From a virus, in IMG/VR virus record IMGVR_UViG_3300032316_000466, positions 1 through 20,209 of that record: DNA of 20,209 bases; one strand, written 5' to 3'. The notes beneath the pieces were generated by a model. The model made no database searches. It was not told where the DNA came from and saw only the letters and a program-made list of their open reading frames with translations. This document shows, in pieces, positions 1,284 through 7,723 of the stretch; the stretch's first letter is position 1, and every line of letters begins with the position of its first letter. The translations under genes and the position numbers were made by a program.

Positions 1284-2492
1284 TTAGAGACCAGTGGTGC
1301 TGGTCGAGCAGGGGAGCGGCAGACCGTCGAACGGACAACGCTTGTACACGATGGCACAGACGTTCTGCGGACGGATCGGCTGGATCGCACGGCTGATTTG
1401 GTAGATGTGCTGACCAAAGTCACCGTACAGGTTACAGTCGTTGTCGCGGAAGTACGTCCACTCCAGTTCGCCCATAGCAAGCTGAGGAGCGAATTTGAAG
1501 GTGCCTTCACCCGTGTAGCTTTCGGGAACGAGGCGCTTGAACGCTTCGCCACCGATAACAAACATGACCTCGTACGGCGCCGTGACCCAAGCCGGGTTGC
1601 GGCGTTGAGCGAAGCCGTTGGTAACTGCGCTGCTGATGATGGGGTTAACCAGAACCAGATTGCCGTTGCCATCGAACCCGGTAGCCCGGAGGGGCTGCTG
1701 GTCGATGCCGAAAGCGAAGCCACGGTAGCCCATGAACTGGTAGCCGGAGATGCTCTCTTCGCCGAGGCGGAAAGAACCAGCCGACAGGTAGTTCAGGTCT
1801 TCTTTGACATCCGCATCGTTACGGAAGTTCTCGATCTGATCAGCCGAGGCGAGGACTTGGAAGAACTCGCCGTCACGGGTCGCGAAAGGCTCGGCCAGCA
1901 TCTCCTCGCGGAGGAACGTGCCGATCTTGTACAGCGACTTGAAGTTCATCGGACCATCGGGAAGCGCCGGGGCAAACTGCGTGTTGATCTGCTGCATGTC
2001 TCCGGTGAGATTCTGCGAGAAGGTCCGTGTGCTGTTGACCGTGAACTTGATACCAGACTTGATGAGGTACTGGTAACGGATGTCCGCATTGATGATCTGA
2101 AGGATCGATTTTTCCAGCGAGACTTGCGCTTGGAGGTAGGAGCCTTTGAACGCCGTCCGGGCTTGCTTCACGCAAACGCGAGGACCAGCCCCACGCAAGG
2201 TTTCAAGCTGGAACTGGTATTCGGTGCTACCCACCTGATCCGGGGTCGCGCCAACGCCACACAAGGTGGTGTCAGCAACGAACTGCGGAGAAGCGAGCGA
2301 AGCAGCAGGAACTGCCATTTCCTCGACAACGGAACGCACAACGTCAGAGACGTTGGGCAGAGTGCCGCCATCGATTGAGTTGATGTAGGGAGATTTACGA
2401 GCAAGAACCCGACCGATCTGCCCAATGATACGATTAACATCCTTCGACGCGAAATTTTGAATCGTCGCCAAAGGGATACATTCGTTTGCCAT
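1284..2492 (-). CDS. Major capsid protein (HK97-fold type, predicted)
   Basis: A 402-residue protein starting MANECIPLATIQN. It is called capsid from its size, its position after portal and scaffold and before tail genes, and its mixed alpha/beta composition without enzyme motifs. I do not recognise a specific family signature, so the HK97 fold is inferred. The open frame extends upstream to a GTG at 2618, but I chose ATG at 2492. The extra 42 residues (Lys/Ser-rich, ending NPKLKT) look like translated leader, and neither start has a Shine-Dalgarno. The region before the ATG is A-rich (AACTTAAAACT). Seven cysteines, two of them in the terminal CPFDGLPLPC, are unusual for a cytoplasmically assembled shell. 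The gene ends with tandem stops TAA TAG. It has its own predicted promoter upstream. Confidence 0.75.
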   Translation of the reverse strand: MANECIPLATIQNFASKDVNRIIGQIGRVLARKSPYINSIDGGTLPNVSDVVRSVVEEMAVPAASLASPQFVADTTLCGVGATPDQVGSTEYQFQLETLRGAGPRVCVKQARTAFKGSYLQAQVSLEKSILQIINADIRYQYLIKSGIKFTVNSTRTFSQNLTGDMQQINTQFAPALPDGPMNFKSLYKIGTFLREEMLAEPFATRDGEFFQVLASADQIENFRNDADVKEDLNYLSAGSFRLGEESISGYQFMGYRGFAFGIDQQPLRATGFDGNGNLVLVNPIISSAVTNGFAQRRNPAWVTAPYEVMFVIGGEAFKRLVPESYTGEGTFKFAPQLAMGELEWTYFRDNDCNLYGDFGQHIYQISRAIQPIRPQNVCAIVYKRCPFDGLPLPCSTSTTGL

Positions 2493-2752
2493 AGTTTTAA
2501 GTTTTGGGTTTTCTGATTTGTTGATTTCGCTCTTGAGATCAACCCCAAAACTCTTCGGGGCGACCACAAAAGCATTGCGGAATTTCACTCGCGTGAACTT
2601 CCAACTTTTTGATCGCACCCGGCACGTTGGTGCTTGTTATTTCGGCCTGTCTTGCAGTTCGTTTGGCGACTGCTCGCCACTACAATAACGGATGTAGCCT
2701 CCCGAGTTGTGCAATAATTAGATCACCGGACTTTTTCTGTCAACGGTTTTTT
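2493..2752 (-). promoter_or_regulatory. Structured 5' leader and intergenic region upstream of the capsid gene
   Basis: This is one of only two sizeable gaps in the window. Its right part carries a sigma70-like promoter (2743..2714). The transcribed leader would be about 210 bases long. It contains a perfect 6-bp hairpin TGGCGA-4-TCGCCA (2664..2679) and, next to it, CTACA-8-TGTAG (2680..2697), so the first 40 bases of the RNA could fold into two adjacent stems. I see no protein in the leader other than the GTG-initiated in-frame extension of the capsid frame, which I regard as spurious. Confidence 0.45.
2714..2743 (-). promoter_or_regulatory. Predicted sigma70-like promoter for the capsid gene
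   Basis: On the minus strand a perfect -35 box TTGACA (2743..2738) is followed after 18 bases by AATTAT (2719..2714), four of six matches to TATAAT, inside an AT-rich stretch. It begins 10 bases after the stop codon of the last glycosyltransferase gene. It would start an RNA near 2706 whose first gene is the capsid protein. A dedicated promoter makes sense, because capsid protein is needed in far larger amounts than the enzymes encoded just upstream. Confidence 0.45.
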
Positions 2753-3466
2753 TTACGCGAGCAATTTTTCTAATTCTGAAACGTCCCAAGGCGTATGCCC
2801 GTCCGGTCTTTGTAATGGGGCATCTAGTCCTCCCCATGACCAGAATTGGATGCACGGCGTCTCCCAAAATTGCGGATTCATCCACTCGAAACTTTCTATA
2901 TGGTGCCTTTTGGCCCATTGCCCAAGTGTATTAAATTCGCTCCATGCCATAGGAGGATGGCTACAGATGTGCGCTTCGAGCGAAACGCCGTGCTTTTGCT
3001 CCATCCATGCCCTGAACTCCGGATAAATCCACCGAGGGTAAATGATGGGCATGCGCCTCATATACTCATACTCGTCTTCCCAGCCCAGCGATTGAGCGGA
3101 AATGGCTCTCCACGGGGTTTGAACGTCTTTTTCCTGCAAGACTATTGGCTTTCCCCCGGAGAAGAAGTGGTGCGGCGTTGTGGGTCTTGTAAAGACAACG
3201 TCACTGTCTACATGGAGTATGTGTTCGGCGTCAGAAAACTGATCGGCGCATAACTTGGTATATTGTTGCGCGAGGTAGCCGCTACAATTGTCTTTGACCT
3301 TGTGTTTTTCAACTCCAGATATGCCTTCGATAAGATGAAAATCTTCTTCCGGTGCGATGATATGAATCTTGTTAAACCCGGAGCAGAACTTATCGATGCT
3401 CTTTAGGCTGTATTTAAGCCATCCTATATCACCGCGATAGGACCGAATTAATATGTCTACCTTCAT
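2753..3466 (-). CDS. Glycosyltransferase, GT-A-like with HVDSD motif
   Basis: A 237-residue protein starting MKVDILIRSYRGD. The open frame extends six codons further, but ATG at 3466 overlaps the stop of the upstream methyltransferase as ATGA, the pattern used throughout this operon. The N-terminal strand DILIRSY, the phrase KIHIIAPEEDF (about 33-43) and HVDSDVVFTRP (about 85-95) are typical of a GT-A Rossmann-like sugar-nucleotide domain. The D87-x-D89 pair would bind the metal and nucleotide sugar. It resembles the DUF6492-type glycosyltransferases. Aromatic-rich C-terminal segments (YPRWIYPEF, QFWSWGG) could form the acceptor site. It is the last gene of the five-gene sugar cassette and the closest to the capsid gene. 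Acceptor and sugar donor cannot be read from the sequence. Confidence 0.72.
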   Translation of the reverse strand: MKVDILIRSYRGDIGWLKYSLKSIDKFCSGFNKIHIIAPEEDFHLIEGISGVEKHKVKDNCSGYLAQQYTKLCADQFSDAEHILHVDSDVVFTRPTTPHHFFSGGKPIVLQEKDVQTPWRAISAQSLGWEDEYEYMRRMPIIYPRWIYPEFRAWMEQKHGVSLEAHICSHPPMAWSEFNTLGQWAKRHHIESFEWMNPQFWETPCIQFWSWGGLDAPLQRPDGHTPWDVSELEKLLA

Positions 3467-4029
3467 GGAACGACGATCCACCAAGACTGATCAAGCTGGT
3501 CTTCGTTAGTGACGTGGAGTTTCAGTTTTTTCTTTTTCACAAACGCATCCACAGCCTTTTTCACGTCACACCGATAGAAGGACTCGTTTAAGTTGTAGTA
3601 GTCATGTCCTCCGAATAGTCCTCCGGGCTTTACCTTGCTATACCAGTCATTAATGTCCTTGCTCACCTGTGGATCATGGTGATTCCCGTCGATATAGACA
3701 AAATCCAAGCTGGAATCTGGAATTTTTCCCAAAGCCTCATCACTTGTTCCACGGAGAACAATTGTTCGTCCCGGAAAGCTGCTGATTTTGCTGATGCACA
3801 AGTTGTAAGCGGCATCGAAGTCGATATTTGCGGAGCCATCGATGTACTCTCCGCACTTGGAAATGTCCCAAGGATCGACAAGAAACAGCCCGGAGCCTTG
3901 CCATTTGTTCAAAATCTCACAGGCGTTTTCCCCGTAAGCCACACCAACTTCTGCTCCAAGGTTCGTGAGACCGTTGGCGTTCAAATAAAGGCCGACATCG
4001 CGCCTATTCTTCAGTTCGGTTATTTTCAT
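3463..4029 (-). CDS. Class I SAM-dependent methyltransferase (Methyltransf_24-like)
   Basis: A 188-residue protein with the motif-I loop GAEVGVAYG (about 25-33) for S-adenosylmethionine. It also has VDPWD (51-55), DFVYIDGNHH (109-118) and KPGGLFGGHDY (134-144). The YIDGxHxxxxVxxDI pattern is characteristic of the Methyltransf_24 family, whose members often act on sugars or glycosylated products. The start at 4029 has an AGGAG Shine-Dalgarno seven bases upstream and overlaps the preceding gene by 26 bases. Lying between glycosyltransferase genes, it most likely O-methylates a sugar or the growing glycan, or caps it. A protein or nucleic acid substrate cannot be excluded, but the fold and family do not point to a DNA methyltransferase: there is no DPPY/NPPY motif. 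Confidence 0.78.
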   Translation of the reverse strand: MKITELKNRRDVGLYLNANGLTNLGAEVGVAYGENACEILNKWQGSGLFLVDPWDISKCGEYIDGSANIDFDAAYNLCISKISSFPGRTIVLRGTSDEALGKIPDSSLDFVYIDGNHHDPQVSKDINDWYSKVKPGGLFGGHDYYNLNESFYRCDVKKAVDAFVKKKKLKLHVTNEDQLDQSWWIVVP

Positions 4030-4762
4030 CGTTTATTCTCCTGCTCATTATTTTGATGACAGAGTCGTCTTTGACTCCATGAAGCAGAACACAGCCGTTT
4101 GCCAGCAGTACATCTACTCCGGATTCGTTAATTGTTCTGGTGTTCCATATGCTTACGACCGCCTTGGTATTGGCCCATCCAAGCAGTGAAAAATTTTTGG
4201 CATGATAGGTGTCCCATGCGGTGCCGTGCGGAGTCCCGGTAATGCCGGGAATTTTCCGGTATAGGTCAATCGCAAACATGGCATTTCCATTGATGTGACC
4301 GACCTGAGGATGATCAAAATTGTGAGGAAGGTGATGACCCATGAAATAGCATTTATGATGCTCCCATTCGTCATCTATCACTTGGAGCCACTCTTTTGTG
4401 AGAGGATAAGCGTCTGCCTCAATAGCCAAAACAGACTTGTATTGAGACCAAACCGGAGGCTTTGACGTAGCCGTTTCCGTATGCCTTCGGTATGCGGTCT
4501 CCACAAGGCTTGACCACAATCCGTTGCTCCCATTCGGATATCCAACAAGCTGCTCCCTTCCCTTCACTACATAGACATTTTCAAACGACTTGCTCAGTCC
4601 CTTCACAATGTCCGGATTAGGTTCTTTTGAGTCGAATCTGTGGAACACAACGAAGTCAGCATGCTTGTTTTTATCCTCTGTAATCAGTGGAATAAATTCC
4701 ATCAGACGATGCGCTGCATCTCTGTCTCCATCCCAGTATTGCAGCGCAACAAGATACTTCAT
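4004..4762 (-). CDS. Putative glycosyltransferase with EADAYP motif
   Basis: A 252-residue protein beginning MKYLVALQYWDGDRDAAHRL. The N-terminal strand is followed by DFVVFHRFD (36-44) and by VLAIEADAYPLTKEW (111-125), where E115-x-D117 occupies the usual place of the metal-binding DxD of GT-A glycosyltransferases. GHINGNAMFAID (155-166) and GTAWDTYHA (180-188) resemble the acceptor-side segments of such enzymes: a G(N/C)-x-hF-x-I/h strand followed by WD. The assignment rests on this pattern and on the neighbours, not on a close family match. The start ATG overlaps the stop of the upstream gene as ATGA at 4762..4759. The 3' end overlaps the methyltransferase start by 26 bases, so translation of the two is probably coupled. 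Confidence 0.6.
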   Translation of the reverse strand: MKYLVALQYWDGDRDAAHRLMEFIPLITEDKNKHADFVVFHRFDSKEPNPDIVKGLSKSFENVYVVKGREQLVGYPNGSNGLWSSLVETAYRRHTETATSKPPVWSQYKSVLAIEADAYPLTKEWLQVIDDEWEHHKCYFMGHHLPHNFDHPQVGHINGNAMFAIDLYRKIPGITGTPHGTAWDTYHAKNFSLLGWANTKAVVSIWNTRTINESGVDVLLANGCVLLHGVKDDSVIKIMSRRINDENNRTEE

Positions 4763-5346
4763 TGCATGTGCTCGTTCATCTCTTGCGAGCGTTTCTTTGT
4801 GGGCGTTTTTCTCGCATGAAAAAGAAGCTCTTGTATGGGTCCAAGTTTGTCATCAGCTACGAGAATTTCAGACTCGGTAACGAGGCTTGTCCCATTGAAT
4901 AGTTCAGAATTGATGAACTTGGTAATAGCCGCATGACAAAGCTCGGGAGTCGCATAGAAAAGCCATGCTGGTCCACCTGTTATAACTTGAAGATTGCCAT
5001 TTTTTTCATGGGTCTCAGCAACGTGAGACGGGAAATTGATATTGACCACATCGTAGTCAGACATCCATCCACCACCAGAAGCGTGAAGCGCACACCACCG
5101 GAGATACCTTGCCATAATCTTTTGCGAGTCGTTGACAAGCTCCGGAGGCATTCGGTGTGATGCGTCAACCAATGTCCTTACTAGCTTCAGGTGCAAGTTG
5201 CTTCCCTTGGCATGGCTTTTGTTGAGCATTACGCACTCCCAGCCCTGTTTTTCCCACGATTGTTTCCAGATGTTTGCACAGGCAAACTCTTCCGGCTGAT
5301 CGACCGTTTGAATCGACTCGTAATATGAATAAATGCGTTTTGTCAT
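4759..5346 (-). CDS. GT32-like glycosyltransferase (DXD sugar-binding type)
   Basis: A 195-residue protein beginning MTKRIYSYYES. The open frame continues 28 codons upstream, but the ATG at 5346 forms TAATG with the upstream stop, and the extension overlaps a confident gene. The core is RYLRWCALHASGGGWMSDYDV (about 80-100, in two parts RYLRW and GGGWMSDYDV). It matches the (R)-x-LR-x-L-x3-GG-x-Y/W-x-D-x-D signature of the DXD sugar-binding glycosyltransferases (Gly_transf_sug, OCH1/GT32-like). The D97-Y-D99 pair is the expected metal/nucleotide-sugar ligand. GGPAWLFYATPEL downstream fits the acceptor-side strand of that fold. It is shorter than typical GT32 enzymes but has the catalytic core. 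It is the second gene of the sugar cassette and is translationally coupled at both ends. Confidence 0.72.
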   Translation of the reverse strand: MTKRIYSYYESIQTVDQPEEFACANIWKQSWEKQGWECVMLNKSHAKGSNLHLKLVRTLVDASHRMPPELVNDSQKIMARYLRWCALHASGGGWMSDYDVVNINFPSHVAETHEKNGNLQVITGGPAWLFYATPELCHAAITKFINSELFNGTSLVTESEILVADDKLGPIQELLFHARKTPTKKRSQEMNEHMQ

Positions 5347-6458
5347 TAGTATGTCTTGTACCCAACATGAAACACAGGAAGCCCAAGGTCTATGTGGCAT
5401 TGATGACCAGCCTGCTTTGCTCGATGGCAAAATGAAACATCTTCGCCCATCGTTGATTTGATCGGATGAAAAAAGTCGAACGCTTGTCCGGGCTTTTCCG
5501 GCTTTAGCTCCGGGAATTTTACCATGATGTCCTCAAGAACGCTTCGATGGACAAGCATGCACCCCGTAGCAACCCACTCTACAGGGGCGACACTGTCCTC
5601 GTAGCTTCGCGCCCTTGGCGCAAGGTCCGGAGAGGAACACATTAGACCCGCGCCCTCTTGCCTACCAAAGTAGGCACCACCGATTAGTTTTTGTCCGCTT
5701 CCGACAAGCCTATGCAGAACATGACGCTGTAGCGGAATATCTCCAATGTTTCTTGCCGCTTGGACCGTTGCCCTCATCCATTGCGGTCTGCCAATACACG
5801 GGATGATATCGTCATCAATCATCAGCATGTACTTGGCATCCGTATCCAAGAACTTTTGGGCAAGCGTGTTACGCGAATGATAAATCATCGCATCACCGAT
5901 AGACATATCGAACCGGATCTTGTCCCGGCCAAAGTCTAACGCCATTGCAAGAAGAGCGAACGCTGTAACCGGATTTGTGGTCTTATAGCATGGGAATCCG
6001 ACAAAGATGTCCCTTCCTGCAAACTCACAGCGGTACGAAGGCATTCCCTCTGTGCTACGCGACTCAATAATGGGGTTGGCAAACGATTCTTTTTCAACCT
6101 TTGCGACCTCTTCCGCCACGCTTTCGGCAAACGATTCGGTCAATGTCTTTTCAGCGACCTCCACATTTGTTTTTGGCTTAACGGGCTTTGGCTTCTTTTG
6201 ATTTTTAGGCTTCGACGTATCGATAATAACGGGCTTTGGCTTTTCAGCGACTGGCTCGTCAAATCGAGACAGGTCACGGTTTGTCTCCGGAGCCTTCGGT
6301 TGTGGAATATTTTGTCGAACTTGTCCGGGTCGAGTGAACGGATCGAAAGAATCGAGAGCGTTCATCGTGATCTTCTCGTCAGGAGATATCTTCGTTGTCA
6401 TGGATTTATACATTTCCCTCAACCCCGGCATTGGATTGAAGAAGTCTTTCAGTTTCAT
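5346..6458 (-). CDS. GT2-like glycosyltransferase with long Pro/Lys-rich N-terminal extension
   Basis: A 370-residue protein. Residues about 145-370 form a glycosyltransferase domain: FVGFPCYKTTNP (152-163), YMLMIDDDIIPC (210-221, with D215-D216-D217 as metal site), EWVATGCMLVHRSVL (294-308), GEDVSFCHRAKQAGH (338-352) and a final HVGY. The order DDD / ATGC / GEDVSFC-R / H is the pattern of phage-type GT2-like enzymes. The first 140 residues are different. They contain FFNPMPGLREMY, then a low-complexity KPKPV/KPKNQKKPKPVKPK stretch (73-96) and a predicted charged helix (100-125). That part could tether the enzyme to the scaffold or capsid. The start has AGGAG upstream, two bases after the scaffold stop, so the sugar cassette is read straight from the head operon. 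Confidence 0.75.
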   Translation of the reverse strand: MKLKDFFNPMPGLREMYKSMTTKISPDEKITMNALDSFDPFTRPGQVRQNIPQPKAPETNRDLSRFDEPVAEKPKPVIIDTSKPKNQKKPKPVKPKTNVEVAEKTLTESFAESVAEEVAKVEKESFANPIIESRSTEGMPSYRCEFAGRDIFVGFPCYKTTNPVTAFALLAMALDFGRDKIRFDMSIGDAMIYHSRNTLAQKFLDTDAKYMLMIDDDIIPCIGRPQWMRATVQAARNIGDIPLQRHVLHRLVGSGQKLIGGAYFGRQEGAGLMCSSPDLAPRARSYEDSVAPVEWVATGCMLVHRSVLEDIMVKFPELKPEKPGQAFDFFHPIKSTMGEDVSFCHRAKQAGHQCHIDLGLPVFHVGYKTY

Positions 6459-6460
6459 CG

Positions 6461-7723
6461 TTAGGCTCCTGCCTCATCAAGCCCCAGATCAATTGCGTCA
6501 CTTGCAGACATTTTGATCCGGTCATTCAACGAGTTTCCCTTGTTTGAATTCGCAGAAGAAATATTGCTCCTCGGCATTTTTGAGGCGCCCTTCAATCGGC
6601 TGTTTTCTTCTGTCAGTTTTTTAAGCTGTGCGGAAAGCTGTGCCGTTGTTGACTGGGTTCGGCGCAACTCGTCTGTCAGAACGTGCGAAAATACTGCCGC
6701 CGCCGCGACATTTGCCCGATCTTGAGCAGTCTGGGGCCAGAGCGCCGATTGAAACTTTTCTGCCAACGCTCCGACAGTTTCGTTGTGCCTTGTGATTTTC
6801 TGGATGTCCTCTTGCGAGGCTCCTGCTGGAACTTCAGCAAACCTTGCCCAAGGCAAATCCTTTGTCATGGCATCGACGTGTTGATCGATTGTAGACGTTT
6901 CCTGCTGATACCAGTTAGTTGTCTGATCCTCGCGTTGAGCCATGATTTGCTCGATGTTTTCGGCAGCATACTGAATCTCTTGCTCTTGCTTTTCCTTGAG
7001 ATCCACAACATCGACCAAGCTGCGCTTGAGCCTTTCGCCATCAGTCATCGGCAACTTATCGATTGCGTTGTTCTTCCACCAAGAAGAGTCAATCTTGTCT
7101 GGACCACCAGCCTTCTCGATAGATTGGATGACATCGTCTGAAGCGCCGTGCTTCTTCAGGATATTGTAGATGTTGTCTTTTGCGGCAGAGATTGGCTGTG
7201 AGTATTTCGACTGAAATTCCGGATCGTTTTTGATGTCAAAAATCTGACGGAACTTGCGAAGCTCATCATAGTCCGGAGGAAGCTGGTACTGCTGCTGCTG
7301 TCCCTCCATCTGGGACAGTCTTTGACGAAGAACTTCTGCTTCTTCGGCCTGTCGCTTATAAGTCGATGCAGTCTCTTGCAGCTTGCGCCAATTGTTTTGA
7401 TTTTTCTCAGAGAGATTTCTCGGTTGCTCAATAGCCGCAATCTCCGGATCAATCTGTGATTGTTGCGGGGGCGCTGGCGATACCTCTGGTTGAACTTGCG
7501 CTGGCTGCGGCACCGGAGCCGGAGGCTCTGGCTGTGCAAAATCTTCTTCTGCCTCTCCAGATTCTTTGACGGCTTCATCGAGCAACGAGTCAATCGTTGC
7601 ATCGGTATCGTCATCAATTCTGTCTGCATCAAGAGATGGATTGCCAAATCCGGACGCTGCTGTGGGTTCGGATACGGAATTGTCTTCCGCATCTGTTGTC
7701 GTTGTATCGATGTCTGTTTCCAT
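6461..7723 (-). CDS. Capsid assembly scaffolding protein (predicted)
   Basis: A 420-residue protein with the layout of phage scaffolds. An acidic N-terminus (METDIDTTTTDAEDN, about 1-60) is followed by a Pro/Gln-rich linker (65-95) and a long helical, coiled-coil-prone region with Gln/Glu runs (105-150, including MEGQQQQYQLPPDYDELR). More helices follow, then a second coiled coil (about 350-375, LSAQLKKLTEENSRLK) and a basic/Ser-Asn-rich tail. No enzyme motif is visible. Scaffold lying between portal and capsid gene is the usual order, although here five sugar genes separate it from the capsid gene. The protein would fill the procapsid and leave or be cleaved during maturation; no protease gene is seen in the window. 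There is no clear Shine-Dalgarno, and it starts five bases after the upstream stop. Confidence 0.72.
   Translation of the reverse strand: METDIDTTTTDAEDNSVSEPTAASGFGNPSLDADRIDDDTDATIDSLLDEAVKESGEAEEDFAQPEPPAPVPQPAQVQPEVSPAPPQQSQIDPEIAAIEQPRNLSEKNQNNWRKLQETASTYKRQAEEAEVLRQRLSQMEGQQQQYQLPPDYDELRKFRQIFDIKNDPEFQSKYSQPISAAKDNIYNILKKHGASDDVIQSIEKAGGPDKIDSSWWKNNAIDKLPMTDGERLKRSLVDVVDLKEKQEQEIQYAAENIEQIMAQREDQTTNWYQQETSTIDQHVDAMTKDLPWARFAEVPAGASQEDIQKITRHNETVGALAEKFQSALWPQTAQDRANVAAAAVFSHVLTDELRRTQSTTAQLSAQLKKLTEENSRLKGASKMPRSNISSANSNKGNSLNDRIKMSASDAIDLGLDEAGA

Follow-up and report, generated by a model that had tools for sequence, protein, structure and literature searches.

Why should a tailed phage carry genes for sugar-transferring and methylating enzymes between its scaffold and capsid genes? 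The question is raised by the virus record IMGVR_UViG_3300032316_000466, a 20,209-base fragment of its genome that was analysed at full length and is referred to as the window. Five overlapping open reading frames (ORFs) at positions 2753-6458 of its minus strand form a cassette that takes up the interval from a scaffold-like gene to a capsid-like one. The cassette is predicted to serve virion glycosylation in a lineage of uncultured tailed phages, with a conserved core of two glycosyltransferases (GTs), exchangeable outer enzymes, and the capsid protein as the probable acceptor. A probability of about two in three is assigned to this reading.

Layout of the cassette

The cassette and its two neighbours, all on the minus strand, are listed below in the order of transcription.

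6461..7723, minus strand: scaffold-like protein, acidic and of coiled-coil type, 420 amino acids (aa); ORF directly upstream of the cassette, which it adjoins in relatives too
5346..6458, minus strand: core GT 1 (DxD type, P0005), 370 aa; ORF with an AlphaFold model
4759..5346, minus strand: core GT 2 (DYD, P0004), 195 aa; ORF with a GT-A model, joined to core GT 1 by a TAATG junction
4004..4762, minus strand: EAD protein (E-x-D, P0003), 252 aa, outer gene; ORF with an ATGA overlap with core GT 2
3463..4029, minus strand: Methyltransf_24 enzyme (P0002), 188 aa, outer gene; assigned by Pfam, 26-base overlap with the EAD gene
2753..3466, minus strand: HxDSD GT (DUF6492/Stealth-like, P0001), 237 aa, outer gene; assigned by Pfam, ATGA overlap with the Methyltransf_24 gene
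1284..2492, minus strand: capsid-like protein, 402 aa, probable acceptor; capsid identity proposed from gene order

The five ORFs lie exactly where a first-pass annotation, made from the DNA letters, had placed them, and the spacing of two bases between the scaffold stop (6461) and the start of the cassette (6458) is confirmed. At the other end, the gap to the capsid promoter had been given as ten bases; it is nine, from the last stop (2753) to the TTGACA at 2743. All main genes of the window are encoded on the minus strand, in the order terL, portal-like, scaffold-like, cassette, capsid-like, and a partial tail-fibre-like gene. The terL gene was identified by a PHROG match, and family support within this gene-order set is found for terL and the tail fibre only. 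The names scaffold, portal and capsid are assigned by order, size and conservation, in the case of the scaffold also by composition, and are to be read as probable. Among the cassette proteins, the only PHROG glycosyltransferase match is a weak one (phrog_2456), and none of the five has a transmembrane segment.

A constant core in related phages

A first survey, with core GT 1 as the query, yielded 63 viral contigs, and gene order was identical in them wherever both neighbours were visible. A second survey was based on the capsid protein alone, which avoids selection for the GT. It returned 98 distinct capsids, with the scaffold gene visible in 79 loci. Core GT 1 lies between scaffold and capsid in 79 of these 79 loci, and core GT 2 is located in the same gap in 73. 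Because the loci were chosen by the capsid gene only, such recurrence shows that the core arrangement is not due to chance. A survey of related phages for the cassette and its position had been suggested by the first-pass annotation, and its outcome is that the core recurs in every capsid-selected locus in which the scaffold gene is visible.

The minimal version of the cassette, found in 25 loci, consists of the core pair alone. Additions beyond the core include a GT9-like protein (36 loci), class I methyltransferases (19 loci), further GT-like families, and FkbM methyltransferases, as well as a sugar-nucleotide epimerase in locus L059. The free swapping of these outer genes, together with an FGE-sulfatase-like gene in the gap of some relatives, might suggest that the interval simply tolerates insertions of accessory genes that have nothing to do with one another. 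This explanation is highly improbable, as core GT 1 is never missing from the 79 loci and most of the family-recognisable outer genes encode GT-like proteins or methyltransferases.

The phages that carry the core form a lineage of uncultured freshwater tailed phages. Their portal and capsid proteins gave no match to isolated phages, and the capsid profile gave none in bacterial genomes. The matches of core GT 1 in isolated phages are weak and come from Pelagibacter, Rhodobacteraceae and Synechococcus phages; those in the Pelagibacter and Rhodobacteraceae phages also stand in other gene contexts. A host clue from terL, a single 3.5-kb contig in a Terriglobia bin, was too weak for naming a host. 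Across the 72 main-clade loci, mean pairwise identity is 86% for the capsid and 56% for core GT 1.

Predicted structure of the core glycosyltransferases

Neither core GT has a Pfam match, and sequence searches of solved structures with GT profiles gave no meaningful match. Alignments of relatives yielded confident structural models for both. Structure prediction, another check proposed in the first-pass annotation, returned GT-A folds for both core enzymes.

Core GT 1 consists of an N-terminal peptide, a Pro/Lys/Glu-rich linker and a C-terminal GT-A domain (residues ~125-370). In the AlphaFold model, the predicted local distance difference test score (pLDDT) of the catalytic domain is mostly above 90. 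The nearest folds, with Z scores from 17 to 15, are LH3 (Z 17), Mimivirus R699, STIV A197 (Z 16.6), Mnn9 and ColGalT1, and Foldseek additionally places ppGalNAc-T2 among the neighbours. These neighbours thus include the protein GTs LH3, ColGalT1 and ppGalNAc-T2 as well as the viral GT STIV A197. Two features of the protein were localised.

5808..5816, minus strand: D-x-D metal site of core GT 1, residues 215-217; from the alignment of relatives
6327..6386, minus strand: conserved peptide SPxExxTxxALDSxDPF at the core GT 1 N-terminus, residues 25-44, candidate docking motif; from column conservation

The metal site had been described as a DDD motif. A metal site is borne out, while its true pattern is D-x-D, which is present in 58 of 59 sequences (DDD 54, DHD 3, DND 1); the remaining one has AND. 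In the N-terminal peptide, column conservation reaches 0.86 for T31 and A34, 0.95 for P40 and 0.83 for F41, and the neighbouring linker is variable. When the motif was sought elsewhere in the proteins of four related genomes, one partial, chance-like match was the only result.

Core GT 2 was modelled with a pLDDT of 95.9 and likewise adopts a GT-A fold, with glycogenin and other GT-A enzymes at Z ~11. Its DYD motif is retained in 51 of 53 sequences.

The outer enzymes and their exchange

The first-pass annotation had counted four GTs and one Methyltransf_24-like enzyme in the cassette. The latter call is upheld by a Pfam match above cut-off (E 1.4e-13), which makes the protein a class I S-adenosylmethionine (SAM) methyltransferase; a homologue occurs in L058. 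Three of the four GTs are supported, namely the two GT-A folds of the core and the DUF6492/Stealth protein. The last of these, the HxDSD GT, matches DUF6492 above cut-off (Pfam E 1.3e-9) and Stealth_CR2 below threshold, and its residues H85, D87, S88 and D89 are invariant. The GT identity of the fourth, the EAD protein, is unproven. E115 and D117 are invariant in its relatives, so the motif is truly E-x-D rather than the full EADAYP, and homologues occupy the same scaffold-capsid interval in other relatives. The protein has no match to Pfam families or solved structures, and a profile comparison with the other GTs was not significant. It is a candidate GT only, known by the E-x-D motif.

Outer GT and methyltransferase genes are gained, lost or swapped behind the constant core. 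The window and L065-L070 have capsids with 94-96% identity but share none of their outer genes: those loci carry a GT9-like gene where the window has the EAD, Methyltransf_24 and HxDSD genes. DNA similarity between the window and these loci ends within core GT 2 and returns at the capsid promoter and leader. Other close pairs behave similarly, with GTfam6 absent from one and present in the other of L075 and L076 (capsids 99.5% identical) and differing outer sets in L090 and L092 (99.3%). Altogether, 49 of 153 pairs with capsids more than 93% identical differ in outer content.

Association of the outer genes with the capsid C-terminus

The presence of outer genes co-varies with the last residues of the capsid-like protein.

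1287..1313, minus strand: last nine capsid codons, PCSTSTTGL, a Ser/Thr-rich tail and candidate glycan site; from the association with outer genes

A Ser/Thr-rich C-terminus is present in most, not all, relatives. Among 87 distinct capsids, those with at least four Ser/Thr in the last nine residues have outer GT/methyltransferase genes in 45 cases and lack them in 5, and those with fewer than four have them in 1 case and lack them in 36 (phi 0.865). On a tree built without the tail, each trait changes about eight times, and the observed association was reached in 0 of 5000 simulations of independent evolution. In a scan of 281 variable capsid splits, residues 399, 398 and 400 occupy the top three ranks, and all of the top three fall in the tail by chance in 0.6% of simulations. 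The rule was also followed by 11 of 11 distinct capsids gathered later. Alternative tail definitions (at least three Ser/Thr, CST, or the last seven residues) gave weaker associations, with phi 0.31-0.56; a Pagel-type test with a looser definition gave p ~0.002 and a simulation p of 0.011. As indirect evidence, these patterns point to the Ser/Thr-rich capsid C-terminus as the site where the elaborated glycan would most probably be attached.

Several points weigh against virion glycosylation with the capsid as acceptor. A sugar on the virion is something we infer from the genes of the locus, and a GT-A fold is silent on the acceptor. The capsid-like profile gave zero matches in family and profile searches, which leaves the capsid assignment without homology support, and it is possible that the EAD protein is no GT. 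The threshold of four Ser/Thr was picked post hoc and then checked on the later capsids, most of which are closely related to capsids already in the set. In 34% of simulations, phylogeny alone produces at some capsid position a single-site correlation as strong as the best one observed. Exceptions to the rule are L127, where outer genes accompany a capsid that lacks the tail, and five capsids that have the tail but no recognised outer genes. Finally, the core GTs are kept in phages whose capsid has no Ser/Thr tail. Since the core pair occurs irrespective of the tail, the tail cannot be the sole acceptor, and the core must have either another substrate or a priming role only.

The retention of the core GTs without a capsid tail would also fit an acceptor elsewhere in the virion, such as the tail tube, fibre, scaffold or a giant protein of 3,500-4,300 aa, with the capsid-tail association as a by-product of shared ancestry. 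Phylogeny alone can indeed produce sizable single-site correlations, and a passage of PMC11600133 describes modification of both capsid and tail tube in mycobacteriophages. This alternative is nevertheless unlikely, since the composite tail measure was higher than in any of the 5000 tree simulations, each trait having an inferred 8 changes, and the later capsids followed the tail rule.

Proposed function and competing targets

In the proposed virion glycosylation, the two conserved core GTs would start the chemistry on a virion protein from the same late gene block. The exchangeable outer GTs and SAM methyltransferases (here the EAD protein, the Methyltransf_24 enzyme and the DUF6492-type GT) would then extend and cap the glycan. 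The product is envisaged as a short, probably O-linked, methylated oligosaccharide, whose elaborated form would be carried mainly on the Ser/Thr-rich capsid C-terminus and may serve in masking or changing the virion surface.

A wider, lineage-wide modular system can be put forward tentatively, at somewhat less than even odds. A near-invariant core would prime virion proteins, perhaps held at the assembling head by the N-terminal peptide of core GT 1, and exchangeable outer sets would build phage-specific glycans on the capsid C-terminus. Sugar coats would thereby differ between phages with near-identical capsids, in what would be a phage analogue of serotype switching.

A virion protein had been named as the target from the outset. 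The target is supported by the position of the core, the tail association together with the C-terminal location of published mycobacteriophage virion glycans, the LH3, R699 and A197 folds, and the absence of flippase and GtrA families from 16 related records; the data favour the capsid and not the tail fibre or scaffold, which had been listed as further options.

Phage GTs often act on DNA, and the cassette might instead glycosylate and methylate phage DNA, giving hypermodified bases that evade restriction, its late-region position being incidental. The first-pass annotation had argued against this from a lack of nucleotide-metabolism genes, an argument that proved incomplete: some relatives do carry TAGT, TET-like and thymidylate-synthase-like genes, although outside the cassette. 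Among 16 related records, TAGT is present in 3, TET/JBP in 1 and a thymidylate-synthase-like gene in 1, and six related records have a GT-B enzyme outside the cassette. None of these modification genes is part of the cassette, and most records that keep the core lack them, whereas core GT 1 is present in all. A terminal repeat of 127 bases marks G009 as complete; this record contains both core GTs and gave no match for TAGT, TET or thymidylate synthase. Neither does DNA glycosylation predict co-variation with the capsid C-terminus, and the TAGT model has no match in the cassette proteins. A DNA target is therefore considered quite improbable. The TAGT genes, without a TET match, are located away from the cassette in three close relatives (G003:24991-25623, G001:35381-36013 and G002:23368-24000, all minus strand).

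Variable sets of GTs and methyltransferases also resemble polysaccharide loci, and the sugar-nucleotide epimerase of L059 would suit enzymes that alter host surface glycans (O-antigen or capsule), thereby excluding competing phages or changing the serotype. Such a role is very unlikely. As had been noted for the window, a flippase is lacking: the GtrA and Polysacc_synt families are without a match in all 16 related records. The cassette proteins have no membrane segments, and both the capsid-tail association and the strictly kept position within a late block, flanked by scaffold and capsid, also speak against such a role.

Comparison with known systems

To our knowledge, virion glycosylation has been demonstrated in few phages only. 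The type of system is already known from mycobacteriophages and a chlorovirus; new are the fixed placement, the constant core, the exchangeable outer part and the link to a capsid peptide. By analogy, the cassette likely belongs among the known virion-glycosylation systems.

Passages of PMC11256854, PMC11600133 and PMC12619734, citing Freeman et al. 2023, describe glycans on the capsid and tail-tube proteins of cluster F1 and O mycobacteriophages, attached at the C-termini of both proteins (PMC12619734). In cluster O, three tandem GTs beside an O-methyltransferase modify capsid and tail tube, according to a passage of PMC11600133. Tandem GTs alongside a methyltransferase in a phage genome are a feature of the cassette too, which resembles the systems of the F1 phage Che8 and the cluster O Corndog type. 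In the F1 phage Maravista, GT genes are located close to the genome's 3' end; the GTs studied here, by contrast, occupy the scaffold-capsid gap of every relative and comprise a constant core and an exchangeable outer set.

The capsid glycans of PBCV-1 have a common core, variable outer sugars and a methylated cap, and are made by virus-encoded cytosolic GTs and a methyltransferase; glycan changes lead to antigenic variants with the capsid protein unchanged (PMC7019647). The cassette shares the virus-encoded GTs and methyltransferase and the common core with a variable outer part. The chlorovirus PBCV-1 differs from the phage of the window in being a virus of eukaryotes whose jelly-roll capsid protein bears glycans linked to Asn.

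In STIV, the viral GT A197 is essential and presumably glycosylates the major capsid protein B345 (PMC10551542). Its fold ranks with those nearest to core GT 1 but, unlike the cassette, A197 is a single minimal GT in an archaeal virus. TAGT DNA hypermodification likewise employs phage GTs; it differs in that TAGT, in the three close relatives, is a separate gene upstream of terL and outside the cassette.

The locus thus presents a GT core as constant as the capsid gene across the whole freshwater lineage, and an outer part that varies with a defined capsid peptide. This offers a precise candidate acceptor site to probe and a way to ask why phages need shell sugar, be it for receptor mimicry, protection from grazers and proteases, or adhesion. 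It also provides a rule for spotting such systems in metagenomes.

Promoter-like site and leader RNA upstream of the capsid-like gene

Two elements lie between the cassette and the capsid-like gene.

2714..2743, minus strand: promoter-like TTGACA-18-AATTAT next to the 3' end of the cassette; 10/12 consensus bases
2609..2710, minus strand: capsid-gene leader, a structured RNA with four helices, two of which form a pseudoknot; from covariation

Promoter-like sites are no commoner in this region than in shuffled sequences, but a TTGACA is found at the same place in close relatives. In 30 leader sequences, 145 pair cells are changed on both sides, compared with 47.6 in shuffles (0 of 500 reached this value) and at most 31 in slid controls. 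The leader has no match above gathering scores in Rfam, and more than 150 loci each contain a single copy of its core motif. The leader sequence motif proved too unspecific when viral contigs were scanned with it. The leader is possibly a control element or ribozyme of capsid expression.

Further observations in related genomes

The FGE-sulfatase-domain gene lies between core GT 2 and capsid at L095:7944-8924 and starts with a hydrophobic, signal-like segment. The domain was identified in L095 by Pfam (E 3.4e-21), and similar genes occur in L097, L100, L107, L117, L122-L124, L128, L141 and L007. The protein is possibly a surface lectin-like or decoration protein.

In some genomes, further GT and methyltransferase relatives are found amid the terL, portal and scaffold genes (G001:25305-25916, G003:14360-14971, and L019:1071-1646 and 5456-6136), so the sugar genes are not limited to the scaffold-capsid gap. 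In the 71,431-base G006, which is perhaps a chimeric contig, a different copy of core GT 1 lies close to each end. The long relatives also contain a giant ORF of 3,528-4,269 aa, located at G003:36875-48097, G009:12155-22741 and, on the minus strand, G001:48597-61406.

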